Position numbers and translations under genes: made by a program
Shown here: positions 5,864-51,383 of the stretch, one piece after another
How positions within the stretch are numbered: position 1 is the stretch's first letter
Layout of the letters: every line of letters begins with the position of its first letter
The notes under the pieces: model-generated
What the model was told of the DNA's origin: nothing
Database searches by the model: none
The model's input: only the letters and a program-made list of their open reading frames with translations
Assembly: GCF_002845275.2 (NCBI RefSeq)
Contig: NZ_CP088149.1
Span: 3,778,501-3,842,500 of the forward strand
Direction of reading: 5' to 3'
Length of the DNA stretch: 64,000 bases
Source: Pseudomonas sp. S06B 330
Lineage (GTDB): Bacteria; Pseudomonadota; Gammaproteobacteria; Pseudomonadales; Pseudomonadaceae

Positions 5864-6211
5864 TTGAATCAGCTACCTGCACAAGAGCCGCTAGCGCATT
5901 GGACATCATTGAAGTCCACTCCCCAGCACATCGCATTCGATGGCATTGTCGTTGATATTAAAAGGATGGCATGATCGGCCTCAACGGACACCATTGGAGC
6001 TGATACGCTTTGCTCAGGCCAGACGACATCAATGACTCATTGACCCGCCTGAGATGCCTCTGGCCGCCGTTTGAGCCGTCTGGCCAAGACACAGGCCATA
6101 ACATCCTGGCAAAGCCCCCGAGTGATGCAGCATCCCTTTGCTCGACAACCTTCTCTGTGGCCCCGAACCTCACCTCCCCCTTTCAACACTCCTTTTTCTT
6201 TTGGGGCATAC
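5864..6211 (+). other. Intergenic stretch between integrase remnant and ParB-like gene
   Basis: There are 348 bases without a credible gene. An open frame on the plus strand runs in from upstream of the ParB-like gene, but its predicted residues (for example PRTSPPPFNTPFSF) look like translated non-coding DNA. I found no repeat of the tRNA-Ser 3' end, no clear terminator and no strong promoter. Base composition moves from mixed to A+T-rich toward the ParB-like gene. Confidence 0.5.
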
Positions 6212-7597
6212 ATGTCATCTAGAAAGAATATTTCCATAAACAGTATCTTATTGGACACTGAGAATGCTCGCCATGGAGATAAAGAGTCACAGCGTGAAAT
6301 ATATGCTTGGATGTGTAGCGGTGAAATCGCCCCAAAGGTGATGCGATTAGCTACTGAAATAGCAAAAAAAGGTATAAGCCCGCTTGAAACTCCTGCAGTA
6401 GTACCTTCTCCTGATGGGGAACGTAAGCCTTGGATTGTCGTCGAGGGCAATCGACGAGTTGCCGCACTTAAATTTTTGAACGACCCAAAGCTATGCCCAG
6501 ATCAAAAGTTACGCAAACAATATGAACGTTTGAAAGCAAATGCCGCAACCCCAATAAAAAGCAAATTTGAGTTTGTTACTTTCGACAGTATTGATATTGC
6601 TAGTTATTGGATTGATCTGCGCCACGGCGGGGAGAATGGCGGCGCAGGCATTATTTCTTGGGGGCCGATGGAGGTAGACAATTTTGCTGCACGACTAGGC
6701 AAAAAAACCACCAATCGACCAGCAGTAGAGATTCTTAGCTATGCACTTAAGAAAGAGCTGATCAGCCAAAAAGAATTTAAATCCGTGCCGGTCACGACTT
6801 TATTTCGACTCGTATCTACTCCTGTAGCCCGTAAAGATTTGGGTTTTGACCTAATAAAAGGAAAGATACACAGAGTAGCAAGCGAAGCTTATTTCGACCA
6901 AGCAATCGAAAGAGTCCTAAAAATCCTCGCCTCTGGCGAAAAAACTGTTACCGATTTAAAAACTAAAGAGCTGCGTGAAGGTTTCACAAAAACACTTCGC
7001 ACGGAAAATAATTGGCCGGAGTACGAAGTAGAGACGCCTATCCCAATCGATGAGTCCGCAAATGATAATTGGGAACCCGTAGAAGATACCTCTGAGGGTG
7101 ACGAGGCGGAATCCAATACAACCAAACCTCGAAAACCTCGCACTCCCCAAACGCCGTCTTGGGATCGGAAGTCCCTATTCGCACGAGGCAGAGATGGGCT
7201 CTCAATTCCTGAGGAGAACTCCAAAGCATGGAACATTGTTGCCGAGCTGCGCCGCCTAAAAACAGGCGGCAACACAGGCACACCAATAGCCGTTGCCATG
7301 TTGCTCCGAGCGCTAATTGAGATCAGCACCAATCGCTACCGAGACGTCTATGCCGTTAAAGCCGACCAAGACTTCACTCGCCAGGTCGCTATAATAGCGG
7401 ATCACATGCGTGGTAATTCTCGAATCACCGTTGATCAACACACACTGATCAACCGCATGACACGAGATGCCGAAAGCATGCTCCACGTCAAGACGTTACA
7501 AAAGTACGTGCACTCTGAGGCATTCCATCCCACGGCAGACGTCCTAAACTCACTCTGGGACCAGATATCATTTTTCGTAGGCGAGTGCTGGAAGTAA
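6212..7597 (+). CDS. ParB/Srx-domain protein, island cargo, possible defence component
   Basis: From the ATG at 6212 (MSSRKNISINSILLD) the product has 461 residues. Residues 1-100 form a ParB/sulfiredoxin-like N-terminal domain with the hallmark EGNRRVAALKFL at about 88-99. After a middle region of no recognised fold comes an acidic then basic, Pro-rich linker (DTSEGDEAES, KPRKPRTPQTP), and then a C-terminal domain of about 130 residues (AWNIVAELRRLKTGG onward) that I do not recognise. It is not a chromosome-partition ParB: there is no parA beside it and no typical central HTH. Codon use is A+T-rich, unlike the core genome. It ends 2 nt from the end of a convergent D12 adenine methylase gene, which suggests a functional pair. 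The role is unproven. Confidence 0.65.
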   Translation: MSSRKNISINSILLDTENARHGDKESQREIYAWMCSGEIAPKVMRLATEIAKKGISPLETPAVVPSPDGERKPWIVVEGNRRVAALKFLNDPKLCPDQKLRKQYERLKANAATPIKSKFEFVTFDSIDIASYWIDLRHGGENGGAGIISWGPMEVDNFAARLGKKTTNRPAVEILSYALKKELISQKEFKSVPVTTLFRLVSTPVARKDLGFDLIKGKIHRVASEAYFDQAIERVLKILASGEKTVTDLKTKELREGFTKTLRTENNWPEYEVETPIPIDESANDNWEPVEDTSEGDEAESNTTKPRKPRTPQTPSWDRKSLFARGRDGLSIPEENSKAWNIVAELRRLKTGGNTGTPIAVAMLLRALIEISTNRYRDVYAVKADQDFTRQVAIIADHMRGNSRITVDQHTLINRMTRDAESMLHVKTLQKYVHSEAFHPTADVLNSLWDQISFFVGECWK

Positions 7598-7599
7598 CA

Positions 7600-8460
7600 T
7601 TAACGCCTTAGGACTGGAGAAGTGTGAAGCTCCAAGTTTCCATAGAACATTGCCTCAGTCGCTTTTGGCCTGAGCATATGAGTTGAGTAGTGGAGAGAAA
7701 ACTCCACTACTTGCGCATCTTCGTAGAGGTCTTTGATTTCTGTACAGTTATCGTAGGTCACCAACCAAGGAGTACCTATCCCCATAACAGCCTCTGCAAT
7801 TCGCTGGTGATCCTGCGGCTGATAGTGATTACGATAGAGCTGCCCGCCCTTTTCATAATATGGCGGATCCAAATATATCAAAGACTGCTCATTCATATTA
7901 ATATCTGGATGCACAATCAACTCCAGCGCATCCATATTGAACAACTGGATACGTTCGCTCAGCGAGCCAATCCTGACCACGCGCTCGATAAGCTTTTCTT
8001 TATTGTAACGGGCATCAATTAGATAATTACCAGTCTGTTTCTGGCCGCCAATAACGCCGCCTTTAATAATACCTGACCGATTGGTTCTATTAAGAAAAAA
8101 TGCGGCAAACCCCAGCGTAGTCAAATCCAAGCCAGTGGGATCAGCGATGACAGCACGCTGATCGTGCCAAGTTTCCATGGTGACGGGCGTATCACGAATC
8201 ATGGCTACGAAACGGTCGGTGTCGTTAAGCACTGCCCACCAGAATGCATGCACCACCGGGTCGATATCGTTTATAGCAATCCGGTCGACAAAATTATTGC
8301 TGAGGAGGTACATCGCCGCCCCAGCCCCCCCGGCATAGGGCTCAACATACGTCCCACCCTCCAGCCCGTTATGCTTGATGAGATCAGACAACCAAGCCCC
8401 CAATCGACCTTTGCCTCCGGGGTAACGCAGCGGTGTAACGAATGAAGGGGCGGTGGACAT
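7600..8460 (-). CDS. D12-class DNA N6-adenine methyltransferase
   Basis: The product is 286 residues and full length for the family. The N-terminal AdoMet motif reads TPLRYPGGKGRLGAW, motif I YVEPYAGGAGAAMYL, and the catalytic motif IV is DPPY in SLIYLDPPYYEKGG. It transfers a methyl group to adenine N6 in DNA, as Dam and phage modification enzymes do; the target sequence cannot be read from the protein. The start at 8460 is preceded by TTACAATGT-like A+T-rich DNA with no strong Shine-Dalgarno. It converges on the ParB-like gene and lies between the prophage scar and the tRNA-Ser terminator. I see no cognate endonuclease apart from the possible role of the ParB-like partner. It differs from the broken methylase at the left edge. 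Confidence 0.88.
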   Translation of the reverse strand: MSTAPSFVTPLRYPGGKGRLGAWLSDLIKHNGLEGGTYVEPYAGGAGAAMYLLSNNFVDRIAINDIDPVVHAFWWAVLNDTDRFVAMIRDTPVTMETWHDQRAVIADPTGLDLTTLGFAAFFLNRTNRSGIIKGGVIGGQKQTGNYLIDARYNKEKLIERVVRIGSLSERIQLFNMDALELIVHPDINMNEQSLIYLDPPYYEKGGQLYRNHYQPQDHQRIAEAVMGIGTPWLVTYDNCTEIKDLYEDAQVVEFSLHYSTHMLRPKATEAMFYGNLELHTSPVLRR

Positions 8461-8701: not shown

Positions 8702-8789
8702 TGGCGGAAGCGTAGAGATTCGAACTCTAGGATAGTTGCCCATCGACGGTTTTCAAGACCGTTGCCTTAAACCACTCGGCCACGCTTCC
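8702..8789 (-). tRNA. serT: tRNA-Ser, anticodon UGA
   Basis: The gene is 88 nt on the minus strand, beginning GGAAGCG and ending CGCTTCCGCCA, so the acceptor stem pairs and CCA is encoded. The anticodon loop CTTGAAA between ACGGT and ACCGT gives TGA. The long variable arm (CGATGGGCAACTATCCT region) and T-loop GTTCGAATC are normal for tRNA-Ser. tRNA-Ser genes are frequent integration sites, and the prophage remnant lies on its 3' side. Confidence 0.95.
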
Positions 8790-38741: not shown

Positions 38742-40067
38742 ATGGCACTGACACGCGAACAGCAAATTGCAGCCCTCGAAAAAGACTGGGCCGAGAACCC
38801 GCGCTGGAAAGGCGTGACCCGTACCTACACCGCCGCCGATGTCGTACGTCTGCGTGGCTCGGTCCAGCCTGAGCACACCCTGGCCCGCATGGGTGCCGAG
38901 AAGCTGTGGAAGCTGGTCACCCAGGGTGCCCACCCGGCCTTCCGCCCGGAAAAAGATTTCGTCAACTGCATGGGCGCCCTGACCGGTGGCCAGGCCGTTC
39001 AACAGGTTAAAGCCGGCATTCAGGCGATCTACCTGTCCGGCTGGCAAGTGGCTGCCGACAACAACTCGGCTGAGTCCATGTACCCAGACCAATCGCTGTA
39101 CCCGGTGGACTCGGTTCCAACCGTGGTCAAGCGCATCAACAACTCGTTCCGTCGCGCCGACCAGATCCAGTGGAAAGCCGGCAAGAACCCAGGTGACGAC
39201 GGTTACATCGACTACTTCGCACCGATCGTGGCTGACGCTGAAGCCGGCTTCGGCGGCGTTCTCAACGCCTACGAACTGATGAAGAACATGATCGAAGCAG
39301 GCGCCGCCGGCGTTCACTTCGAAGACCAACTGGCCTCGGTGAAAAAATGCGGCCACATGGGCGGCAAGGTACTGGTACCGACCCAGGAAGCCGTTCAGAA
39401 GCTCAGCGCTGCCCGTCTGGCTGCCGACGTTGCTGGCGTACCGACCATCATCCTGGCCCGTACCGACGCCAACGCCGCTGACCTGCTGACCAGCGACTGC
39501 GACCCGTACGACCAGCCATTCGTGATTGGCGAGCGCACTCAGGAAGGTTTCTACAAGGTACGTGCTGGCCTGGACCAAGCCATTGCCCGCGGCCTGGCTT
39601 ACGCGCCTTACGCCGACCTGATCTGGTGTGAAACCGCCAAACCGGACCTGGACGAAGCCCGTCGCTTCGCCGAAGCGATCAAGAAGGAATACCCGGACCA
39701 GATCCTGTCCTACAACTGCTCGCCTTCTTTCAACTGGAAGAAGAACCTGGACGACGCGACCATCGCCAAGTTCCAGCGCGAACTGTCGGCCATGGGCTAC
39801 AAGCACCAGTTCATCACCCTGGCTGGCATCCACAACATGTGGCACGGCATGTTCAACCTGGCGCACGACTACGCACGCAACGACATGACCGCCTACGTGA
39901 AACTGCAGGAACAAGAGTTCGCTGACGCCTCGAAAGGCTACACCTTCGTGGCCCACCAGCAAGAAGTCGGCACCGGCTACTTCGACGACATGACCACCGT
40001 CATCCAAGGTGGCAAGTCTTCGGTTACCGCTCTGACCGGTTCGACTGAAGAAGAGCAGTTCCACTGA
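38742..40067 (+). CDS. aceA: Isocitrate lyase
   Basis: The product is 441 residues ([20 protein letters not shown]). The active-site motif [16 protein letters not shown] holds the catalytic Cys, with [20 protein letters not shown] and [16 protein letters not shown] also conserved. It splits isocitrate into glyoxylate and succinate, competing with Icd and Idh, both encoded 7-11 kb away. ACGAGG precedes the start. It has its own promoter region and a terminator. Confidence 0.97.
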
Positions 40068-40093: not shown

Positions 40094-40127
40094 AAAACCC
40101 GGAGAAGCCCTGCTCTCCGGGTTTTTT
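40094..40127 (+). terminator. Terminator between aceA and the MFS gene
   Basis: AAAACCCGGAGA and TCTCCGGGTTTT with an 8-nt loop and flanking T run. It probably serves both convergent transcripts. Confidence 0.85.
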
Positions 40128-40138
40128 CATTTCATGTG

Positions 40139-41320
40139 TCATCGACTGTTGCTGACGTCAGTCGGCGAACCCGCTCTGCCCCGGCCCAGCAACAGACAGG
40201 TCACGCCAAACACCACGCCTGTACTACCAAACACTGCCCAGGTCGCGTTGAAACCAAGGCTGTCCAGCATCGGTACAGCCATCGCCACGCAAAGCACCTT
40301 CGCTCCTGCCTGCACCACGGGTATCAGCGAGAACAGCAGCCCCTGGCGCGACTTTGGCGCATACCGGGCAATCAGAGCAGCCATGTAGGTTATGCCAATG
40401 ATCTCGCTCAGGGTCCAGATACCCACCAGCAGCAGTATCGTCAGCCACGTATCGACGAAGGCATAGGCGCCGAAGCCAATGCCATAGCAGATGGCCGCAA
40501 GCGCCAGATTACTCATGGCTGACCAGCGTCGGGTCAAGACAATCAGCGGTCGCGTCAAGGCAATGACCAGCAGCCCGTTGACGATACCGGCCATCCCGAA
40601 CAAACGTGCAGCATCACCTATACCTAGCGCTGCCAGCCAGAGGGGGAACTGGTATTCGCGCTGCCCATCGAGCAACGACAGCACGAAGAACATCGCACCG
40701 GCCAGGATCACCACCACGGGTATCGGCGCGCGCCTTGCGCTACGTTGCGTTACCCGCTCATCGGGCACATGTTCAGGCGCAGGCAGGGTCAGCACGGCAC
40801 TAGCGACCAGGCAGACCAGGCAAATTGCAGCGTTGAACCACAACAGATACTGGCTTTGCCAGCTCAACAGGAGGCTGCCGACCACGAACAGCAGAACACC
40901 ACCGGCATTGCTGGCCAGGTGCAGGTAAGCAAAGGCACCCACATGGTCGCCCGGCGGAGCAGCCTGGGCTGCCATGACACTGAACAACGGCGTGATGGCG
41001 CCCGCACTGAACATAAACAGCAACACCATCGCGATAGCGATCGGCGAGGCCAGCACCAGGCCTGCCAGCAGTGCCAGCAGCGCCCCCACCGAGCAGACCA
41101 ACAACAGGGCCCGGCTGCCCACCCGGCCGGTCAGTTGACCGCCAAGCAAATTACCCGCCAGGTAACTGGTGATCATCAACGCCACAGTAGTCGCAAGCCC
41201 GGCATCCGTCAGCCCGAAGTGTCGATGCATGAACAACGCCGCAAACGATCCTACGCCGTTAGCCATGACGAACAATAACTTGAGCAGTGCCACCTTGTGC
41301 ATCAGTGGACTCATGCGCAT
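40139..41320 (-). CDS. Major facilitator superfamily transporter, likely exporter of the cluster product
   Basis: The product is about 393 residues with 12 predicted membrane helices. Sequence such as LLGGQLTGRVGSRALLLVCS matches the MFS loop 2-3 region and KSRQGLLFSLIPVVQAGAKV the loop 10-11 region; it resembles sugar-efflux or drug:H+ antiporters in general shape. It is the last gene of the minus-strand cluster, 20 nt or less after the AbiEi-like gene, so export of the pathway product is a reasonable inference. The start at 41320 (MRMSPLMHKVALLKLLF) is uncertain; ATGs at 41314 and 41302 are alternatives. The substrate is unknown. Confidence 0.75.
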   Translation of the reverse strand: MRMSPLMHKVALLKLLFVMANGVGSFAALFMHRHFGLTDAGLATTVALMITSYLAGNLLGGQLTGRVGSRALLLVCSVGALLALLAGLVLASPIAIAMVLLFMFSAGAITPLFSVMAAQAAPPGDHVGAFAYLHLASNAGGVLLFVVGSLLLSWQSQYLLWFNAAICLVCLVASAVLTLPAPEHVPDERVTQRSARRAPIPVVVILAGAMFFVLSLLDGQREYQFPLWLAALGIGDAARLFGMAGIVNGLLVIALTRPLIVLTRRWSAMSNLALAAICYGIGFGAYAFVDTWLTILLLVGIWTLSEIIGITYMAALIARYAPKSRQGLLFSLIPVVQAGAKVLCVAMAVPMLDSLGFNATWAVFGSTGVVFGVTCLLLGRGRAGSPTDVSNSR

Positions 41321-41339
41321 GAAACCGCGGGGCACTGCA

Positions 41340-42074
41340 CTATCCACGAGGGCCGAGGCACAGGGTCGTGCCATCCTTGAGCCGTGCAATCCAGCGCCGC
41401 TCGCTACCGGTGTGCACCCGCCAGCGCCCAAGCAACTCATCGACGTCCAGCGACTGCGCCTGGCGCGCCAGACGCAGGAACAGGCGAACAGCCTTCACAC
41501 TGGTACAGTGCTGGAGCAATCGCCCGCTGGTCAGGGAGCAGACGTCACCGACAGCGCAGAACCGATCCCTGGCCTTGAGTAGATCATGACTACAACTCAC
41601 CTCGTAAAGCATCTCCAGCAACGCACGCTCGCGCGTTGACCTGAGCAAACCTGCCTGCCGTTCAAGCGTCGCTGTACCTAGCGTCGGTGCGCCGCTCCAG
41701 TCGAACAATCGGGCATGCACGTAACGCACCGGATAACGTTCGACAAACCAGCGGGGCAATGAGGCGCGACTATCACCCCACAACACCAGCGGTGCGACAT
41801 CATCTTCACAGACGGTCCCCAGCACACTGTCACCCCCGATATGCAAGCCAGCAATCTGCCGTGTCAGGTAGGAGAAACCAGCGCACAGGCTCGGTTCGGT
41901 CTCTGGAAAGGCATACAGCCCGTGGGCGATACGGTTCAGCCAGCCATTCTTTGCGTAGCTCGCAGCCCGCTGACTCGAGATACCGATGCGCTGCAACGCG
42001 CTGAGATCGAGCAGCATCTCTCTGGGCTGGGAGATATAGAGCTTTCTGATCAATGAATATTGTTGTGTTGACAT
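41340..42074 (-). CDS. AbiEi-type (type IV antitoxin family) winged-helix protein without a toxin partner
   Basis: The product is 244 residues from the ATG at 42074 (MSTQQYSLIRKLYISQPREM). Residues about 20-65 form the AbiEi N-terminal winged helix (LSALQRIGISSQRAASYAKN, GWLNRIAHGLYAFPET). The C-terminal domain carries the family hallmark RSTRERALLEMLYEV near residue 140. In type IV systems AbiEi is a DNA-binding repressor and antitoxin for the nucleotidyltransferase AbiEii, which is absent here: the next gene is a transporter. Embedded at the end of a metabolic operon, it may act as the cluster's transcriptional regulator. Upstream is a 79-bp gap after the aminotransferase. Confidence 0.75.
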   Translation of the reverse strand: MSTQQYSLIRKLYISQPREMLLDLSALQRIGISSQRAASYAKNGWLNRIAHGLYAFPETEPSLCAGFSYLTRQIAGLHIGGDSVLGTVCEDDVAPLVLWGDSRASLPRWFVERYPVRYVHARLFDWSGAPTLGTATLERQAGLLRSTRERALLEMLYEVSCSHDLLKARDRFCAVGDVCSLTSGRLLQHCTSVKAVRLFLRLARQAQSLDVDELLGRWRVHTGSERRWIARLKDGTTLCLGPRG

Positions 42075-42153
42075 AGCCCGCACTCCGCTGTTTCTGGTCG
42101 GCCAGCGTCGATGACTGTGGGTGCGCAGCCCCCCACGACCCCGACGGATGACT

Positions 42154-43212
42154 TCAAGCCTCATGTAGAGCCTGGATGAGCGTATGCAGGTCGGCGCTCC
42201 CCGGTATCGCCACACGCAGGACATTAGCGAGCAGAGCACCGGCATGGGGATACCCCGAACAATCGGCGAAGCGGATTCCAGCCCTGTGCAGGGCCTTGGT
42301 CAGACGCTGCTCATTGCAATCATCGAGTAGCACGAAGTTCGCGTGGGTATCGATGACACCGACCCCCAGGCCCTGACAGCACTCGATGAGCTGCGTCCGT
42401 ACGTGATCCTGGCGACCATGTGCCGACGCCAAAGCCGGCAGGTTGGACAGGCAGTGCAGGGCCGCCTTCACTGCGGCATGGTTGATATCCCAAGGGCCAC
42501 GCACCTTGAGTAATTGCCTGACGGCATGGGCACCGGCAACGACATAACCCAACCTCAAGCCTGCCAGGCCAAAGTACTTGGAAAAAGAGCGGATCACGAA
42601 CACCTGCTCAAGGCCGCTGAAAGCCGGAAGGCAGGAGTGGCGCAGATACTCGTAATAACATTCATCCACGATCACCGGCTTGTTCAGCCCTACACAGTGA
42701 TTGATCAACCGATGAAGATCGCCAGGTTCAATCTGCACCCCCAACGGATTATTCGGATTGCACAGGATCAGCCCATCGCTACCGGGCAAGGCATCGAGCA
42801 CCGCATCGCATGGCAAGCGGAATGACTGTCCGTGGCGCTCATAGGGCACGACGACCGACGTCACCCCGTTGACGTCGAGCATCTGGTAGTAGAACGAAAA
42901 CACCGGCGACGGAATGACCACCCGCGCGCCTGGCGCGAAGACCAGCCGCACCACCAGATCGATGGCCTGGTCGGCACCATTGGTCAGGAGCAGATGCTGC
43001 CTGGGGACCTGGCAATAATCAGCGAGCGCATCAAGCAATAGCCTGTAGTTGGGGTAGGTGTACAAGTCCCTCGGGCTCAATGCACCGGTAAGGAATGTAT
43101 CCAGGAAGGATTCGAGAAACTGGTTCTCATTGAGATCAAGCAATACCGAAGAGAAATCACGCTCCGGTGCTCTCCATTGCCCGGCCGCCAAGGTGTGCGG
43201 ATGCAGTTTCAC
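42154..43212 (-). CDS. HisC/CobD-like PLP-dependent aminotransferase (fold type I)
   Basis: The product is 352 residues. Fold-type-I aminotransferase landmarks are clear: TNGADQAIDLVVRLVF, LCNPNNPLGVQIEPG, VDECYYEYLRHSCLP and the PLP-lysine in RSFSKYFGLAGLRLGYVVAG. It is closest in look to histidinol-phosphate aminotransferases and threonine-phosphate decarboxylases. A separate role from histidine synthesis is implied by its position in the cluster. Its ATG overlaps the aldolase TGA by 4 nt. Substrate is unknown; a 2-oxo acid or amino-phosphate intermediate of the pathway is likely. Confidence 0.8.
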   Translation of the reverse strand: MKLHPHTLAAGQWRAPERDFSSVLLDLNENQFLESFLDTFLTGALSPRDLYTYPNYRLLLDALADYCQVPRQHLLLTNGADQAIDLVVRLVFAPGARVVIPSPVFSFYYQMLDVNGVTSVVVPYERHGQSFRLPCDAVLDALPGSDGLILCNPNNPLGVQIEPGDLHRLINHCVGLNKPVIVDECYYEYLRHSCLPAFSGLEQVFVIRSFSKYFGLAGLRLGYVVAGAHAVRQLLKVRGPWDINHAAVKAALHCLSNLPALASAHGRQDHVRTQLIECCQGLGVGVIDTHANFVLLDDCNEQRLTKALHRAGIRFADCSGYPHAGALLANVLRVAIPGSADLHTLIQALHEA

Positions 43213-43952
43213 CGGCCTGCCCCTCCATAGATGATTTCCTCGCCCTGCCGGTACATCTGCTGTACATCAGCCTCGTCGACGTAAACCACCGGGAAGCCAC
43301 TGGCAGCAGCCAGCTGTTGACTGACGATCAAGCGCCCGACCTCTGCGGTGAAGGCCAGGGCACGATGAAACGCCTCCGAGAGGTTGCGCCCCAAGGTGGT
43401 GATACCGTGGCCGGGCATGACGATGCAATTGGTATCGGACACACATCGGGCAATGGCCTGGATATCCAGTTCGATGTTCACACCTTCGCCCAAAATGCAG
43501 GGCGGCTTGCCCATCACCAGGGCCGTGTCGGTGGAAACGTACTTCATCGCCCGCCAGCGCAAGACCGAAAAGAACGCGATGACGTCATTGGGATGCAAGT
43601 GCACGGTGGCATTGATGTCAGGGCGGCGGCAGAGGATCTCCCGGTGCATCCGATGCCCCAGGCTCGGCCTTGTAGTGCCATGCAACAACTCATTCGAAAG
43701 CAGGTCCAGCACGACGATGTGTTCCAATTCGCACTCTTCGAGCGACAGGCCAAGGTGCTTGGTATAGACGACATCGCACCGCCAGTGCGGGCAATGGCGG
43801 CGCACGGCGATATTGCCCAAGGTATTCATCAGCAGACGCCTGGCAGCCAGGCGTTGCCCGTAGAGCAGAATGCCTTGAGCCGTCGCGCGGTCGAACCACT
43901 CGGGAATCTCACACCGCTGCGCAGGCCAAGCCTTGATGGTCGATTCAAACAT
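43209..43952 (-). CDS. Class II aldolase/adducin-family protein
   Basis: The product is 247 residues from the ATG at 43952 (MFESTIKAWPAQRCEIPEWF). Zinc-ligand candidates are the two His of NATVHLHPNDVIAFF and the His of VMPGHGITTLGRNLSEAF, the standard class II aldolase pattern of fuculose-phosphate aldolase relatives. Such enzymes cleave or form hydroxy-ketone or hydroxy-acid C-C bonds, and some members decarboxylate. It overlaps the dehydrogenase stop by 8 nt and the aminotransferase start by 4 nt, so translation is tightly coupled. Confidence 0.8.
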   Translation of the reverse strand: MFESTIKAWPAQRCEIPEWFDRATAQGILLYGQRLAARRLLMNTLGNIAVRRHCPHWRCDVVYTKHLGLSLEECELEHIVVLDLLSNELLHGTTRPSLGHRMHREILCRRPDINATVHLHPNDVIAFFSVLRWRAMKYVSTDTALVMGKPPCILGEGVNIELDIQAIARCVSDTNCIVMPGHGITTLGRNLSEAFHRALAFTAEVGRLIVSQQLAAASGFPVVYVDEADVQQMYRQGEEIIYGGAGR

Positions 43953-44934
43953 GGACCTTGCCCTCCCTGCCTTGCAGCCTGCACTGATCGGCCCCGATTG
44001 CCGCATCTTCTTCCAACATCGCCAGCAGGGTCTGCAGCGCCTTTGCCTTCAGTGTCGATAATGACCGATGGCTGTAAAACGCCGCGTGAGGTGTCATTGC
44101 CACGCGTTCATGTTCGCGAAGTGCGCGCGGTACATCCGGCTCGTGCTCGACGACATCGAGCAGGGCCTGCCCTACACGCCCGCTGTCCAGTGCCCGCAAC
44201 AGGCTGTCGTTATCGATGAGCGCACCGCGAGACGTGTTGATCAACGCAGCGCCAGGCTTGATCCGGGCGAAACTGCGATCGTTGAGCAAGTGACGGGTAG
44301 CCGGCGACAGCGGCAAATGCAATGACAAAATATCGGCCTGTGCCAGCAAAGTCTCGAACGAACAGGCCTGCGCTGCTTCGTCCGGACAGCGTGTCAGCGC
44401 TGGATCGTGAAACTTCACTCTATAACCGAACGCGGCTGCGCGCCGGGCCACAGTCTGACCGATGGCCCCATACCCCAGCAGCCCGAGCACCGTCTCGCGG
44501 CAGGGTTTCACCCCACCTTCGCCTACCTCGCCACCGTGGTCGCGCCAGCGCCACCCACCCTGGCGGGTGTGCCTGAAATAATCGAGCAGCCTGCGCTGGG
44601 CGAGCAGCACCAGGGCGAAGCTATGCTCGGCAACTTCATCCACCCCCACCTGGCCTATGTTGGCAAAGCGCACAGCCCGTTTTTGCAGGGCCGCCATATC
44701 AACGTCATCCACACCCGTGGTCGCCTTTACCAGCGCTCGACACCGCGATGCCCGGGCCAGCAGCGCTTCGTCAACCACCACAGAATGAAAGGCAACGATA
44801 CCGTCGGCCCATGCCAGTTGCCTGAACGTCGGGGTGCAGGTCACCTTGATCTCAGTCCCGTCATCACGCTGGCCATCAAACTCGCCATGCTCGACATAGT
44901 TCACCCGCAGCGAATCAATCATCAGAATATTCAC
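43945..44934 (-). CDS. D-isomer-specific 2-hydroxyacid dehydrogenase
   Basis: The product is 329 residues. The NAD-binding motif is VLGLLGYGAIGQTVARRAAA. Catalytic Arg is in NTSRGALIDNDSLLRAL, Glu in DVVEHEPDVPRAL and His in MTPHAAFYSHRSL, so the active site looks complete. It would reduce a 2-oxo acid to the D-hydroxy acid or the reverse. I prefer the GTG start at 44934 (VNILMIDSLRVNYVEHG) because GGAGAAGGA lies just upstream; an ATG at 44952 lacks a Shine-Dalgarno. It starts 4 nt after the preceding gene's stop. Confidence 0.82.
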   Translation of the reverse strand: MNILMIDSLRVNYVEHGEFDGQRDDGTEIKVTCTPTFRQLAWADGIVAFHSVVVDEALLARASRCRALVKATTGVDDVDMAALQKRAVRFANIGQVGVDEVAEHSFALVLLAQRRLLDYFRHTRQGGWRWRDHGGEVGEGGVKPCRETVLGLLGYGAIGQTVARRAAAFGYRVKFHDPALTRCPDEAAQACSFETLLAQADILSLHLPLSPATRHLLNDRSFARIKPGAALINTSRGALIDNDSLLRALDSGRVGQALLDVVEHEPDVPRALREHERVAMTPHAAFYSHRSLSTLKAKALQTLLAMLEEDAAIGADQCRLQGREGKVHV

Positions 44935-44938
44935 GTGG

Positions 44939-45976
44939 TCATCCTTCTCCATTTGGCGCTGGTTGCCTGTGCCCCTGGGTATGATTCTTCGTCGAACCGC
45001 TGAGGTAATCGCACCACCGCCCCAACTGTCGCTCAAGCGCAGTGGTATATAGATGCCTGGCGACAAGCATGTCCTGGCTGGCGTGGCCAACGCAGCGAAA
45101 GTAGCTGATTGCCGCGTGCCGAGGTGACGGGGGCTTGTGTAGCAATGCATCGAGGGCGGTAATCTGCCGGGGCGTAATCAGCGAACGAGCCAGGGCCTGG
45201 CTGACTTCCCCCGATTCACGCATCGCCGCCTGCGGGTCATCGACGTGGATAAGCGCATGGCCGAGTAAGCCGGGATCGACTTCGCAGGCTTGCAAAGTAC
45301 TGCCCCCTATAGCGTTGATATGCACGCCCGGCTTGAGCTGATGGGCCAGGACCAGAGGTTCTTCCCGGTCGTGGGATGTGGTGGTGCAGACGATGTCCGC
45401 ATCCGCCAGTGCTTGCCCGACAGAACTGACGGCTTCCACTGGCACACCGATCTGCGCACTCAGCGCGGTGGCAAAGGCACGACAGCGGTCAATGCTCCTG
45501 GACACCACCTTGATCCGGCGCAGCTTCCGGATCGCGGCGATGGCCCGTATGTGCGCGCCGGCCTGGACCCCCGCTCCGAGCACGGCCAGCGTCGGTTGCG
45601 TCATTGGGCAGAGTCGGTCGGTAACCAGGGCGCTCATGGCGGCGGTTCGAAGTGCAGTCAGGGCGCCACTGTCGAGCATGGCCTGCAGACGTCCCGTCTC
45701 GGGATCGAGAAGCAGCACCGCACCATTGATCGCCGCAAGCCCTCGGCGGGGATTGGCCGGAAAGAAAGACGACACCTTGATGCCCATCACCTGGCTCTCC
45801 GGTAGAGACGCAGGCATGAACAGTGAGAACGCCCGATGCGAGCGATGCTCGATGATTTGCCGCGCGGGCACCTTGTCCAGCATACGCACACTGGCTCGGT
45901 AGTCCCGCGCCAGGATCGCGAGAATTCCCGCGATATCGGTGCACTGGTGGATATCCTGTTCGTTGAGTAAAAGCAT
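44939..45976 (-). CDS. Ornithine cyclodeaminase/mu-crystallin-family enzyme
   Basis: The product is 345 residues from the ATG at 45976 (MLLLNEQDIHQCTDIAGILA). The NAD-binding motif LAVLGAGVQAGAHIRAIAAI and the active-site stretches GIKVSSFFPANPRRGLAAIN and LLDPETGRLQAMLDSGALTA are typical. Members cyclise ornithine, reduce ketimines, make alanine or (SbnB) help form 2,3-diaminopropionate. GAGG lies 8 nt before this start; an ATG at 45997 is an alternative. It lies between the MaoC and dehydrogenase genes. The product could be an imine-derived amino acid used by the pathway. Confidence 0.8.
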   Translation of the reverse strand: MLLLNEQDIHQCTDIAGILAILARDYRASVRMLDKVPARQIIEHRSHRAFSLFMPASLPESQVMGIKVSSFFPANPRRGLAAINGAVLLLDPETGRLQAMLDSGALTALRTAAMSALVTDRLCPMTQPTLAVLGAGVQAGAHIRAIAAIRKLRRIKVVSRSIDRCRAFATALSAQIGVPVEAVSSVGQALADADIVCTTTSHDREEPLVLAHQLKPGVHINAIGGSTLQACEVDPGLLGHALIHVDDPQAAMRESGEVSQALARSLITPRQITALDALLHKPPSPRHAAISYFRCVGHASQDMLVARHLYTTALERQLGRWCDYLSGSTKNHTQGHRQPAPNGEG

Positions 45977-46001
45977 GTCCGAAGCCTCGATTGCCATGCG
46001 C

Positions 46002-46526
46002 TCAACCAATCGGATAGTCCTGCGAACATTCTTCGCAGGGCACCAGAAAGGTTCGTCGATAGGTAATGACAGGCAAGCCGTCCTGATTGCGACCCATCAC
46101 TCCAACGGTGACGATGCCCTGCCCCGGTCGGGATCTGGACAGGCGCTTGGCCAGCACCTCGCTCTCGGCATACAACGTATCGCCTGCAAACACGGGATTC
46201 GGCAGGCGGATTTCATCCCAACCCAGGTTGGCAATAGCACGCGCACTCAGGGTGGCGACCGTCATGCCACTGACGATGGCCAGGGTCACCGAGCTGTTGA
46301 CCAGCAGGCGACCGAATTCGGTACGCTGCGCATAATGCGCGTCGATATGGGCGGGGTGATTGTTCATGTTGATCAGCGACTGCCACAGGTTGTCCAACTC
46401 GCTGACAGTCCGCCCGGGACGGTGCTCGAACACATCGCCGACAACGAATGCTTCGTAGGACAAACCGGGCGTTTCACGATAGCGGCTCGGCGTAATGCGC
46501 TGATAGCCAGTAATCATCGGTTCCAT
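46002..46526 (-). CDS. MaoC-family hydratase/dehydratase
   Basis: The product is 174 residues from the ATG at 46526 (MEPMITGYQRITPSRYRETP). The hot-dog hydratase signature is NPVFAGDTLYAESEVLAKRL, and the catalytic region reads NNHPAHIDAHYAQRTEFGR with Asp/His. It resembles mesaconyl-CoA and beta-hydroxyacyl-CoA hydratases. A strong Shine-Dalgarno (GAGGAGG) precedes the start. Directly upstream is a CitE-like lyase; the same pair of activities makes and dehydrates beta-methylmalyl-CoA in the ethylmalonyl-CoA and 3-hydroxypropionate pathways. Confidence 0.82.
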   Translation of the reverse strand: MEPMITGYQRITPSRYRETPGLSYEAFVVGDVFEHRPGRTVSELDNLWQSLINMNNHPAHIDAHYAQRTEFGRLLVNSSVTLAIVSGMTVATLSARAIANLGWDEIRLPNPVFAGDTLYAESEVLAKRLSRSRPGQGIVTVGVMGRNQDGLPVITYRRTFLVPCEECSQDYPIG

Positions 46527-46537
46527 CGTCAACCTCC

Positions 46538-47365
46538 TCAGAGTCCCAGCTCCTGGGCACGCTGCATGACTTTCATGGCTTGTTTGACGAACGGCGGCCC
46601 GATCATCAGCGCGTTCAATCGGGTGATCTTGCTGCCGCTGCCCTGAGAAGCCTCGATAATCGCGTGGGCCTTTTCGCGCGCCTCCACCGAAGGTGTGAAT
46701 GCCTGATTGATGATCTCCACTTGACGTGGGTGGATGGCCGTCTTGCCACTGAAGCCCAGATCTCGGGCGGCCAGACTCTCATCCCGCAGGCCCGACTCGT
46801 CATCCAGGTGGAAGTAAGCGGTATCGAATGCCGGAATCCCCGACGCCGCAGCGGCAGCGACGATGCTTGAGCGGGCATGCAGCATGTTCTGCCAGCCGCC
46901 AATGTCTACGCCCAGACTGGCGGCATAATCCGCGGAGCCAAAGATCAGCCCGTCGGCACTACGCGCCACCGCGTGGATGTCACCTAGACACGACGGGGTT
47001 TCCACGGTGACGAACAGCAAGGGAGATATGCCGTCGCGGGCCAGATTGGCGCGCACAATATCGACCTCGCTGGCACACTGGACCATGGTCATGACCACAT
47101 GAGCCGGCCGTTGCCGCATTCGCTGGAGCAGCAGAAGATCCTGCAACCCCTCGTTGCTACGCAGGGGATTGATGCGTACCGCCATGCTGACCGGTGACTG
47201 TTCAACAAAGAACAACTCCAGGTTCAGGCGAGCTGCGGCCTTCTGCCCGGCTGGCACGCCATCCTCAAGGTCCAGGACCATGACATCGCTCAGTTCGCTC
47301 TTGCAGTACTGCCCTGGATGCAGAGCAGAACAGTAGAGCAGGCTTCTCGGTACGAACGGACTCAT
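46538..47365 (-). CDS. CitE-like acyl-CoA lyase (malyl-CoA/citramalyl-CoA lyase family)
   Basis: The product is 275 residues. HpcH/HpaI-CitE family residues are visible: metal and substrate sites in VMVLDLEDGVPAGQKAA, Arg in AVRINPLRS, Glu in VTVETPSCLGD and Asp in FGSADYAASLGVDIGG, plus GKTAIHPRQVEIIN near the C-terminus. Members cleave or form beta-hydroxyacyl-CoA bonds with glyoxylate, pyruvate or acetyl-CoA. GAGGAGG precedes the start, and the ATG overlaps the upstream stop (ATGA). The neighbouring aceA makes glyoxylate, a natural co-substrate. Confidence 0.85.
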   Translation of the reverse strand: MSPFVPRSLLYCSALHPGQYCKSELSDVMVLDLEDGVPAGQKAAARLNLELFFVEQSPVSMAVRINPLRSNEGLQDLLLLQRMRQRPAHVVMTMVQCASEVDIVRANLARDGISPLLFVTVETPSCLGDIHAVARSADGLIFGSADYAASLGVDIGGWQNMLHARSSIVAAAAASGIPAFDTAYFHLDDESGLRDESLAARDLGFSGKTAIHPRQVEIINQAFTPSVEAREKAHAIIEASQGSGSKITRLNALMIGPPFVKQAMKVMQRAQELGL

Positions 47366-48609
47366 GGACGCGCCTCCTCATTCCCTGTGAGCGACCCGCC
47401 GCAGCGCTGTACCTGCTGGGCGACGATCGAGCAGAAGCTGCGGATATCTTCCTCGGTCATGTCTGCACGCAGCATCACGCGCAGGCCGGACTTGTCACGG
47501 GCAACAATCGGAAAGAACACTGCCGAGGTGTAGAAACCCTCCCTGAACACCGCCCCGGAAACACTGACCGCCATGTCCGGGCTAGCCATGGGCACGACAC
47601 GAATCGGCGACGGTGTACCAGCATGTTCGGTCGGCATCAGTTGATCGAACAATGCGATATTGCGCATCAGCCTGCCCTGCAAGGTGGCCAGTTCGGCAGA
47701 ACGATGGATCTCCAACGATGCCATTGCCGCCCCGATCGCCGCAGGATTCAGGTATTGCGAATAAGACATCGGACCGCCGAAGCGTCGAAATACCTTGTGA
47801 TAAGACGCCTGCCTGGACATGAATATGCCGCCGCCATTCGCAGCAAATGCCTTCGCCAGCGAATAAACCAGTATGGTTCTGCTGTTTATCTCAGGCATCA
47901 AACTACGGACATATCCCTCACCCTTTCTGCCATAAGCACTAAGTGAATGGGAATCATCGAAATAAAGAAACAATCCGTACTTTTCCTGCAATGCCAGCAA
48001 GCGCTCGATCGGTGCACTTCCTCCCATGCTGTAGGCACCATCTGCAACATAGGCCACCTGACGATGGCGCTTGCACATATCTTCGATGAATTCCACATCA
48101 TTATGCGCACAGGTAGTCACCTGAGTTTCATCACCACAGATTGCCTTGACCTGGTTCAATGCAAAGTGCGCGTGCTTGTCAAAGACCAGATAGGGCCGCA
48201 CGCCATCAGTGAAAATGCCGGCAGCCAACAGCGGCAATGAAGCGACAATGCCGGCACTGCAGGATGTCGCGGTAAAAGCCTGACAGTCGAAGTGAGCCGA
48301 CAGCGCGTCCTCCAACTCATCCAGTTCGCGCAGGCGAATACGGATGCGCGACGTCGGCAGGTTGACGGTGCCACTGTCCAAGACATACCGCGCAGCCCGC
48401 TGGACCAGCCGCTCATCGGTCTCCAGCCCCAGGTAGGAGCAGGAGCACATATTCATGAAGGTATGACCGTCCTGATCGCGCAGCCGGCTGGGATGACATT
48501 GAACAACGCTGCGATCGGTCAGGCCGGACTCCTGGGCAAGCTGCCAAGAGGTATTACCCAGTTCGATAGTACGGGCAGTGTTGATGAACATATTTCTTTT
48601 TTCGGACAT
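47362..48609 (-). CDS. Alpha-oxoamine synthase family enzyme (KBL/BioF/ALAS/CqsA type)
   Basis: The product is 415 residues from the ATG at 48609 (MSEKRNMFINTARTIELGNT), preceded by GGGGA; an ATG at 48621 is possible. PLP-site features fit the family: VADGAYSMGGSAPIERLLAL, FDDSHSLSAYGRKGEGYV and the Schiff-base lysine in VYSLAKAFAANGGGIFM. These enzymes condense an amino acid with an acyl-CoA, usually with loss of CO2, to an alpha-aminoketone. bioF and kbl normally sit in other contexts, so a dedicated role in this pathway is likely. It is the first gene of the minus-strand operon. CqsA-type signal synthases are the closest functional analogy I can offer; the acyl donor is unknown. Confidence 0.8.
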   Translation of the reverse strand: MSEKRNMFINTARTIELGNTSWQLAQESGLTDRSVVQCHPSRLRDQDGHTFMNMCSCSYLGLETDERLVQRAARYVLDSGTVNLPTSRIRIRLRELDELEDALSAHFDCQAFTATSCSAGIVASLPLLAAGIFTDGVRPYLVFDKHAHFALNQVKAICGDETQVTTCAHNDVEFIEDMCKRHRQVAYVADGAYSMGGSAPIERLLALQEKYGLFLYFDDSHSLSAYGRKGEGYVRSLMPEINSRTILVYSLAKAFAANGGGIFMSRQASYHKVFRRFGGPMSYSQYLNPAAIGAAMASLEIHRSAELATLQGRLMRNIALFDQLMPTEHAGTPSPIRVVPMASPDMAVSVSGAVFREGFYTSAVFFPIVARDKSGLRVMLRADMTEEDIRSFCSIVAQQVQRCGGSLTGNEEARP

Positions 48610-49007
48610 GGTATTCCCCATAAACCTTATTAAGAAGTTCACACGTATAAAGCTAACGAATACAACAGGAAATTTCTTACAGCGGAATACAACATATGTA
48701 ACCTTTGTGAGCCCTCAGTAAAAATCACCGAGCAACAATACCAACACCATTTGAAACGACAGGTCAAGCAACAGACCAGAGAAGAGCAACTGAAGCATCA
48801 GAAAGTCGCGCGCAGGATTAATTAAGGCGCTATTTTCAAACAAAGCACCCGCTCACTTACCGACACATTCAACGAGAACAAGACACACCAACATAACTTA
48901 GAAAATATTTGTGACATTTTCTGCAGGAAATTACCCGGATACGCCCTAGCCTTTATTTGCGAACTACTTGTCCGCTACCAACTTTGCAAACCGGAGAACA
49001 TCCACCA
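48610..49007. promoter_or_regulatory. A+T-rich divergent control region of the metabolite cluster
   Basis: The region is 398 bp between the oxoamine synthase and SDR starts, far richer in A+T than the genes. GAATACAAC is repeated directly at 48658-48666 and 48685-48693, a 27-bp period. GAAAAT-N9-ATTTTC lies at 48901-48921 on the SDR side. No small gene with a recognisable product is visible. Confidence 0.55.
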
Positions 49008-49766
49008 ATGGGCAGACTCAAGGGCAAGCGCGCACTGATCACCGGAGCCTCCAACGGCATTGGCCGAGCCATCGCCGAGTCGTTCATAGCCGAAGGGGCC
49101 GATATCTTCGTCACCGCCTACACCGACACCAGGGCGATCGAAGCGCTCGTGGCAGCGGCACACGACAGCGGTCGACGCGCCGAATCGGCACGCGTCGATC
49201 TGGCCGAAGCCGATGTCGACACGCTGTTCGACCAGGCTCATGACGCACTAGGCGGCCTCGACGTACTGGTGAATGGACCGGCATTCGTCTCGCGCACACC
49301 GTTTCTGCACTTCAGCGAACAGGAGTACCAACGTACCCTGGCAGTGAACCTGCGGTTTCCGTTCTTTGCCATCCAGCGCTTCGCCAGGGACTGCATTGCC
49401 CAGGGCCGCGCCGGCAGCATCATCAACCTGTCATCGGTGAGCGCCTTCCGGGCGTTGAGCCGCATGGCCGCCTACCAGGCCAGCAAGGCCGGGCTGTCGA
49501 TGCTCACGCGCAGTTGTGCTCTGGAGCTGGCGGTCCACGGCATTCGGGTCAACACCTTGTCTCCTGGGCTGACCGCCACCCAAGGCAACGCCGATCAATG
49601 GCGCGACGCCCCGGACGTCTGGCAGGCACGAAAAAAGGACATCCCCCTGCAGCGTTGCGGCATGCCTGCTGACATGGTCGGCGCAGCTATCCTCCTCGCT
49701 TCAGACGAATCGGCCTGGATGACCGGGGCAGATCTGGTGATCGATGGCGGACTCAGCTGTATATAG
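49008..49766 (+). CDS. Short-chain dehydrogenase/reductase
   Basis: The product is 252 residues from the ATG at 49008 (MGRLKGKRALITGASNGIGR). The cofactor motif is TGASNGIG; catalytic residues are Ser in INLSSVSAFRALSRM and Tyr/Lys in AAYQASKAGLSML. It resembles classical 3-oxoacyl or keto-alcohol reductases. It is divergent from the cluster and shares its control region, so I infer it belongs to the pathway, perhaps reducing the aminoketone made by the oxoamine synthase. CGGAG lies 13 nt upstream. A REP follows. Confidence 0.82.
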   Translation: MGRLKGKRALITGASNGIGRAIAESFIAEGADIFVTAYTDTRAIEALVAAAHDSGRRAESARVDLAEADVDTLFDQAHDALGGLDVLVNGPAFVSRTPFLHFSEQEYQRTLAVNLRFPFFAIQRFARDCIAQGRAGSIINLSSVSAFRALSRMAAYQASKAGLSMLTRSCALELAVHGIRVNTLSPGLTATQGNADQWRDAPDVWQARKKDIPLQRCGMPADMVGAAILLASDESAWMTGADLVIDGGLSCI

Positions 49767-50969: not shown

Positions 50970-51383
50970 ATGCCCGATTCGACAGGACTCATCGCCCACA
51001 ACTGGGGCTTTGCCATTTTCCTTTTGGGTGTCGTCGGCCTCTGTGCCTTCATGCTCGGCCTGTCCGCCCTGCTCGGTAGCAAGGCCTGGGGCCGCAGCAA
51101 GAACGAACCCTTCGAGTCCGGCATGCTGCCTACTGGCGGCGCCCGCTTGCGCTTGTCAGCCAAATTCTATCTGGTCGCGATGCTGTTCGTGATCTTCGAT
51201 ATCGAAGCCCTCTTTCTCTTTGCATGGTCTGTGTCCGTCCGCGAAAGCGGCTGGACCGGATTCGTCGAAGCTCTCGTTTTCATAGCAATTCTGTTGGCAG
51301 GCCTTGTCTACCTATTCCGAGTGGGCGCCCTTGACTGGGCTCCGGAAGCTCGTCGTAAGCGGCAAGCGAAGCTGAAACAATGA
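50970..51383 (+). CDS. nuoA: NADH:quinone oxidoreductase subunit A
   Basis: The product is 137 residues with three membrane helices. The family landmark is [20 protein letters not shown] followed by [20 protein letters not shown]. NuoA is part of the membrane arm near the quinone site of complex I. AAGGA precedes the start. It leads the nuo operon nuoA-M, all on the plus strand. Confidence 0.97.

Follow-up and report, generated by a model that had tools for sequence, protein, structure and literature searches.

A conserved metabolite gene cluster of Pseudomonas with a ketomemicin-type core and a possible link to inhibition of leucyl-tRNA synthetase

The window analyzed here, a 64,000-nucleotide stretch of the 5.64-Mb chromosome of Pseudomonas sp. 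S06B 330, carries between aceA (38742-40067) and nuoA (50970-51383) nine genes on the minus strand and one divergent gene; the nearest named relatives of this cluster belong to Pseudomonas. Together the genes form a real, conserved metabolite cluster that is free of nonribosomal peptide synthetases (NRPSs) and combines a known biosynthetic core, headed by an alpha-oxoamine synthase (AOS) of the KtmB family, with new tailoring genes. In several relatives a second leucyl-tRNA synthetase (LeuRS2) adjoins it. The features of the window cluster are the following:

47365..48609, minus strand: AOS, a KtmB-family pyridoxal phosphate (PLP)-dependent C-acyltransferase of 415 aa (Pfam PF00155; NF005697)
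46541..47365, minus strand: CitE/RipC-like lyase (PF03328)
46005..46532, minus strand: MaoC/RipB-like dehydratase (PF19315/PF01575)
44942..45997, minus strand: reductase of the ornithine-cyclodeaminase/mu-crystallin (OCD) family (PF02423, OCD_Mu_crystall)
43948..44952, minus strand: D-2-hydroxyacid dehydrogenase (D-2-HADH; PF02826/PF00389)
43212..43952, minus strand: class II aldolase/adducin-fold protein (AldII; PF00596, Aldolase_II)
42157..43212, minus strand: HisC/CobD-like PLP enzyme (PF00155, Aminotran_1_2)
41343..42074, minus strand: AbiEi-type transcriptional regulator (PF11459 and PF17194, AbiEi_3 and AbiEi_3_N)
40142..41320, minus strand: exporter of the major facilitator superfamily (MFS; PF07690, MFS_1)
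49008..49766, plus strand: divergent short-chain dehydrogenase/reductase (SDR; PF13561)
40094..40125: hairpin resembling a terminator, located from MFS to aceA in the intergenic gap (terminator scan, plus strand)
48610..49007: divergent intergenic gap from AOS to SDR (from the sequence)

The original prediction had placed these genes at 40139-49766, and Pfam agrees with the families it named, the minus-strand set of nine including the MFS gene. The overlaps of 4-8 nt that it described were recovered for AOS/CitE and AldII/HisC (4 nt each), for D-2-HADH/AldII (8 nt, with an ATG at 43952) and for MaoC/OCD (8 nt, provided that OCD begins at TTG). AbiEi lies near HisC but does not overlap it, as 79 nt separate the two (AbiEi starts at ATG 42074). 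The starts of AOS (ATG 48609) and SDR (ATG 49008) diverge across about 400 nt, as predicted for the SDR; a promoter scan found no sigma-70-like site in this gap, so that the sharing of a promoter with AOS is not shown. The hairpin at 40094-40125 is listed for the plus strand only, and the 10 kb scanned hold six terminator-like sites against a shuffle mean of 8.3, that is, no excess. The GC profile of the window has no sharp shift at the cluster. No AbiEii toxin gene stands beside AbiEi, whose neighbors are HisC and MFS (AbiEii elsewhere was not searched for). As predicted, Pfam revealed no NRPS or polyketide synthase among the ten cluster proteins; nor was there a medium-chain dehydrogenase/reductase (MDR), ATP-grasp ligase, amidinotransferase, peptidase, CoA transferase or sensor kinase among them. 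Elsewhere in the window, a low-GC stretch (6001-8000; 0.474) holds a 508-aa open reading frame (ORF; 6071-7597), ParB-like by eye, and lies close to a tRNA-Ser gene (8702-8789); it is possibly a small mobile island.

Family assignments of the individual enzymes narrow the range of plausible functions. In NCBIfam the AOS scores 483 bits with NF005697, exceeding the cut-off of 342, and it matches PDB entries 8xha, 8xhd, 8xhk and 8i7u at about 310 bits. With NF005526, the family of CqsA and LqsA, it scores 81 bits against a cut-off of 428. A CqsA/LqsA-like aminoketone or hydroxyketone signal, to which the shared broad AOS superfamily might point and which is one form of the aminoketone signal named in the original prediction, was rejected on this score and is most improbable: the best subfamily of the AOS is NF005697, the ten proteins include no sensor kinase, and CitE and MaoC would not provide for fatty-acyl chemistry. 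In NCBIfam these two proteins match best to RipC (CitE-like protein, 176 bits, cut-off 375) and RipB (MaoC protein, 223 bits, cut-off 340), as might be expected of an operon for the breakdown of a compound like itaconate or citramalate, with the MFS protein acting as an importer. Such a role is very unlikely. Both scores lie well below the equivalog cut-offs and no match to RipC above its cut-off occurs anywhere in the window's genome, on which grounds itaconate degradation was rejected; no CoA transferase is present among the ten proteins, and the condensation carried out by AOS enzymes is described as irreversible in PMC11906848. Catabolism would also leave the LeuRS2 of relatives unexplained.

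For the OCD protein, the top solved match in the PDB search is delta1-pyrroline-2-carboxylate reductase (6t3e), and for D-2-HADH the top matches are phosphoglycerate dehydrogenases and CtBP. The HisC-like protein stays below the cut-offs of both TIGR01141 (191 bits) and TIGR01140 (CobD; 190 bits) and matches 7szp and 1lc5 in the PDB. AldII had no PDB match in the search at E 1e-8. Fuculose-phosphate aldolase has a catalytic Glu; in an alignment to 6btd and beta-adducin, AldII has Gly at this position, as in adducin. The Gly is invariant in all ten aligned rows, the window's included (first high-scoring segment pair per orthologue, with the second piece of AldII from locus L006 excluded), and the HxH motif is retained. 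Because of this Gly, true aldolase chemistry of AldII is doubtful.

A scan of genome contigs with the AOS yielded 39 loci (L numbers), six of which, L001-L006, carry the entire gene set in identical order. When 398 genomes of the genus (G numbers) were searched with CitE at E <= 1e-60, seven genomes were retrieved, all seven with the full set in the same order; three genomes were reached twice (L001=G210, L002=G229 and L003=G251). In total, the full set is present with the same order and strand in ten Pseudomonas genomes, namely, that of the window (G000), L001-L006, G211, G322 and G370, the clusters of L004 and G370 being almost identical. Thus, in the co-occurrence check that the original prediction had called for, the genes stay together and are not scattered. 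Both the aceA and nuoA flanks are present for seven of the ten (G000, L001, L003, L004, L005, G322 and G370); for L002 the nuo flank alone was seen, and the stretches examined for L006 and G211 reach neither flank. The MFS gene is found in all ten full clusters and AbiEi in three (window, L001 and G211), and an SDR orthologue (70-71%) occupies the same divergent position in five of the nine others (L002, L004, L005, G322 and G370). AldII of L006 matches as two pieces and may be broken. Two Pseudomonas loci are reduced: L007 consists of AOS, MFS, desaturase and LeuRS2 genes, and L031 of a truncated AOS running into HisC, followed by MFS and LeuRS2, with a truncated SDR orthologue. Among 57 genomes sampled as relatives, the best AOS outside the window's genome reached 46%.

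Several observations on related loci stand apart from this. In G211, an ATP-grasp ligase gene with a weak match to the L-amino-acid-ligase C-domain lies between AbiEi and MFS (L112 12948-14231). Partial aceA 3' ends were found next to nuoA (L001 9120-9579 and L129 10081-10209), with a complete aceA across the cluster or LeuRS2, which suggests that the partial copies may be recombination scars of an insertion hotspot between aceA and nuoA. Further Pseudomonas AOS homologues (42-46%; L060-L064 and L067) gave no CitE or MaoC matches; among their neighbors, Pfam identifies a class II aldolase in L063 and a DUF4917 protein in L061, and L067 has a class II aldolase judging by a 29% match.

AOS, CitE and MaoC are co-located in 35 of the 39 AOS-related loci, six of the window type and 29 others, which come from Myxococcota, Acidobacteriota, Actinomycetota and Pseudomonadota. 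The four loci without the trio are L007, L031, L008 (MaoC not found) and L039 (a distant AOS alone). Neighbor maps display the best non-overlapping match per place and hide the MaoC of some loci found in this co-occurrence scan. An MDR dehydrogenase gene is present on the AOS strand in 21 of the 29 other loci (its identity was established by Pfam in L026), an OCD-family gene on that strand replaces it in seven (L009, L012, L015, L027, L033, L037 and L038), and L011 lacks both. The four Dyella loci further contain a gene of the arginine-deiminase fold (PF02274 in L025) and NRPS-like stretches. In a tree of 43 KtmB-type AOS rows (42 loci and the window, none of them removed by the 300-residue filter) and four distant rows of the AOS superfamily, the KtmB-type rows, L151 included, form one clade (100/100, with a long-branch warning), within which OCD-type rows group weakly (80/80) and the OCD loci L139 and L156 (36% match) fall among the MDR types. 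L151 (genome G1006) encodes AOS, CitE, MaoC, MDR and a PGM1-type ATP-grasp protein, the first three being 43%, 40% and 55% identical to those of the window. Its divergent 384-aa ORF, an amidinotransferase candidate, has no Pfam match, and its N-terminus looks like that of an amidinotransferase.

These families correspond to the ketomemicin (ktm) genes, which are described in PMC11943689 as encoding an aldolase (ktmA), a PLP C-acyltransferase (ktmB), a dehydratase (ktmC), an ATP-grasp ligase (ktmD), an amidinotransferase (ktmE) and a dehydrogenase (ktmF) of an NRPS-independent pathway. Judged by sequence kinship, AOS, CitE and MaoC (KtmB, KtmA and KtmC) make up the carbon-carbon-forming core of ketomemicin biosynthesis, the products of which are carbonylmethylene pseudopeptides. 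The original prediction had not recognized the gene combination from any named pathway; this no longer holds for the core, whereas for the whole set, and for a Pseudomonas LeuRS2 cluster, no publication was found among the titles and abstract beginnings of the open-licence PMC literature. No ktm locus could be identified among the 120 matches listed for each of two queries, a Streptomyces AOS and a mycobacterial-looking AOS, and 394 sampled genomes of actinomycete classes gave three AOS matches and no ktm locus. The genome of L151 contains a second KtmB-type cluster, with OCD and aminopeptidase P (L152 6949-13680), one Holophagales locus has two or three AOS matches (L016 10001-15700), and two OCD-type actinomycete clusters (L155 3420-6500 and L027 12029-15062) include DmpF/DmpG-like acetaldehyde dehydrogenase and aldolase genes.

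Downstream of MFS, directly or past a desaturase gene, an ORF of 866-897 aa follows in L002, L004, L007 and L031. The L002 ORF is a leucyl-tRNA synthetase (LeuRS) by Pfam and scores 978 bits with TIGR00396 (cut-off 548). We counted LeuRS genes with PF13603, which also matches 14 of 14 control genomes, in 20 genomes, attributing weak additional matches to other synthetases of class I, and found a normal LeuRS together with a second copy in L002, L004, L006, L007, L031, G211 and G370. LeuRS2 adjoins MFS, or lies next but one past the desaturase, in five of the ten full clusters (the near-identical L004 and G370 among them), and the same holds for both reduced clusters found via AOS, L007 and L031. 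Compared with the L002 copy, the LeuRS2 proteins show 73-95% identity; to housekeeping LeuRS they are about 51% identical, while the LeuRS of Erwinia and of the window's genome share 60%. The HMGH and KMSKS motifs are retained in all seven LeuRS2 examined, and 81 columns (some with gaps) that are invariant in 13 housekeeping LeuRS are fixed differently in the seven. A Phe-to-Leu change in the pocket motif of LeuRS2 was considered as a clue and dropped, as the housekeeping LeuRS of Erwinia likewise has Leu.

A LeuRS2-specific piece was detected at E <= 1e-40 in ten of the 398 genus genomes, which are taken as one sample for the CitE and LeuRS2 searches. Three of the ten (G211, G229 and G370) have the full cluster, and this co-occurrence with the seven cluster-bearing genomes in 3/398 gives a Fisher p of 0.0004, uncorrected for kinship. 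The identities of AOS and LeuRS2 correlate over five loci (r 0.89, exact permutation p 0.03, uncorrected for phylogeny). In G058, whose contig is as long as that of L007, LeuRS2 accompanies an AOS-MFS-desaturase remnant and in G392 a desaturase fragment; two further cases, found via LeuRS2, lie at the aceA-nuoA site, with an MFS and SDR remnant in G264 and alone in G273, as would be expected if non-producers keep immunity. Self-resistance by a synthetase copy is the function of MupM, ObaO and similar proteins, and the linkage of LeuRS2 suggests that it may serve producers in the same way.

The analysis thus shows which families are present, how they are ordered and conserved, that the core is akin to ktm and that LeuRS2 is linked to the cluster in relatives; from this we infer the reactions, substrates, tailoring steps, product, target and mode of inhibition. 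The order of reactions follows the logic of ktm. The HisC-like enzyme, perhaps together with D-2-HADH and the aldolase-fold protein, would supply an unusual 2-oxo acid, to which the CitE-like enzyme, running against the lyase direction, would add an acyl-CoA (the KtmA role), and MaoC would dehydrate the malyl-CoA analogue (the KtmC role). The OCD enzyme would perform the reduction that the MDR dehydrogenase carries out in the ktm type, because it stands where MDR stands in other loci. AOS would then join the acyl-CoA to an amino acid, with leucine as a guess, and with loss of CO2 yield an alpha-aminoketone, the ketone of which may be reduced by the divergent SDR; MFS would export the product, and the second LeuRS would protect the maker in many relatives. 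A leucine-based alpha-aminoketone would resemble leucyl-adenylate, and this resemblance would explain LeuRS as the target. We therefore propose, with a probability of about one half, that the product made and exported by the cluster is a pseudodipeptide-like antimetabolite of the aminoketone (carbonylmethylene) type, which inhibits leucyl-tRNA synthetase. Among the product classes of the original prediction, an aminoketone antimetabolite is the one that fits best.

Alternatively, the product could be a free non-proteinogenic amino acid, such as a leucine analogue charged by or blocking LeuRS, instead of a dipeptide isostere. The HisC-like, OCD and D-2-HADH families act on amino and oxo acids, there is no ligase among the ten window proteins, and LeuRS2 could discriminate against a leucine analogue. 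Yet a KtmB-type AOS couples an amino acid with an acyl-CoA to give an aminoketone, not an alpha-amino acid, which makes this alternative rather improbable.

A number of observations weigh against an aminoketone inhibitor of LeuRS. No compound is known. The window's own genome has a single LeuRS, as do L001, L003, L005 and G322, that is, five of the ten with full clusters, and no column of the housekeeping LeuRS separates these five genomes from ten others. An altered housekeeping LeuRS as the means of resistance in producers lacking LeuRS2 was for this reason rejected, and the protection of the five is unaccounted for; the LeuRS of the window has seven private changes among the 15 compared. 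Conversely, seven of the ten LeuRS2 genomes of the genus sample are without the full cluster, and in G098, G225 and G385 LeuRS2 lies at an unrelated place with no trace of the cluster nearby, the copies of G225 and G385 being interrupted or shortened. The proposed exchange of MDR for OCD is blurred by four of the 21 MDR loci (L013, L019, L020 and L034), which carry an OCD-like gene as well, on the opposite strand. Finally, an ATP-grasp ligase, of a type different from KtmD, was seen in G211 only, the other clusters having not been fully screened.

Target-like genes are also found in other KtmB-type clusters. The Erwinia mallotivora locus L033 combines AOS, CitE, MaoC, OCD and ATP-grasp genes with one resembling methionyl-tRNA synthetase (MetRS), which scores 433 bits with TIGR00398 (cut-off 336) and 577 with NF008900 (below the cut-off of 598); the same genome has two further strong PF09334 matches. 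L139 and L152 have aminopeptidase P within the cluster; AMP_N matches number three in the genome of the former and two in that of the latter, this gene included. An M28 peptidase gene lies downstream in the OCD-type loci L009 (by Pfam) and L012, L015 and L037 (by a 55-57% match). The MetRS, aminopeptidase P and M28 genes fit the idea of a target copy but do not prove it.

The peptidase genes bear on another possibility: that the proposed route does yield a pseudodipeptide or aminoketone, whose target is, as for arphamenine, an aminopeptidase or protease, with LeuRS2 being a passenger or answering another compound. The peptidases of other OCD-type clusters are in line with it, as are the absence of LeuRS2 from five of the ten full clusters, that of the window among them, and the inhibition of aminopeptidase B by arphamenines, stated in PMC11943689. 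However, none of the ten proteins of the window cluster is a peptidase (the screen for peptidases did not extend to other window-type clusters), and the linkage of LeuRS2 to the cluster, its correlation with AOS and its presence at the same site speak for LeuRS as the target. We regard a peptidase target as unlikely, if a realistic prospect. On a broader and tentative view, KtmB-type cassettes may be a general, largely NRPS-free route to aminoketone mimics of aminoacyl-adenylates and dipeptides, each aimed at a different enzyme and carrying its copy: LeuRS in Pseudomonas, MetRS in Erwinia mallotivora, aminopeptidase P in actinomycetes and M28 peptidase in Massilia and kin. The product of the window cluster could then be among the first natural leucyl-ketone LeuRS inhibitors.

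According to PMC11943689 (2025), arphamenines and ketomemicins are the sole known natural ketomethylene pseudopeptides, a class that would be widened by a branch in Pseudomonas equipped with tailoring genes of its own. A linked spare LeuRS offers a target that can be tested before the structure is known; if the proposal is true, a LeuRS inhibitor built in this way would constitute a new antibacterial scaffold, and looking for target copies could help to sort the many other cassettes.

Known systems resemble the window cluster only in part. Itaconate degradation (RipA-RipB-RipC) shares with it a MaoC hydratase and a CitE-type lyase, but the window proteins score under the equivalog cut-offs and lack the company of a CoA transferase. 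As in MupM/ObaO-type self-resistance, a divergent second synthetase lies beside biosynthetic genes in relatives; unlike in those systems, it is a LeuRS, and the window's genome has no second copy. Arphamenines of Chromobacterium violaceum are carbonylmethylene dipeptide isosteres, the product class expected here, and their known target is aminopeptidase B, not a synthetase. The ktm pathway of Salinispora, Micromonospora and Streptomyces shares with the window cluster the aldolase, PLP C-acyltransferase and dehydratase families and the independence from NRPSs. The window cluster is not filed as a ktm cluster because, although these three core families are shared, three defining features of ktm fail: OCD takes the place of the MDR dehydrogenase (KtmF; MDR type in L151), and neither the ATP-grasp ligase (KtmD) nor the amidinotransferase (KtmE) is among the ten proteins. 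Relative to ktm, the window adds D-2-HADH, the aldolase-fold protein, the HisC-like enzyme, SDR, MFS and AbiEi.

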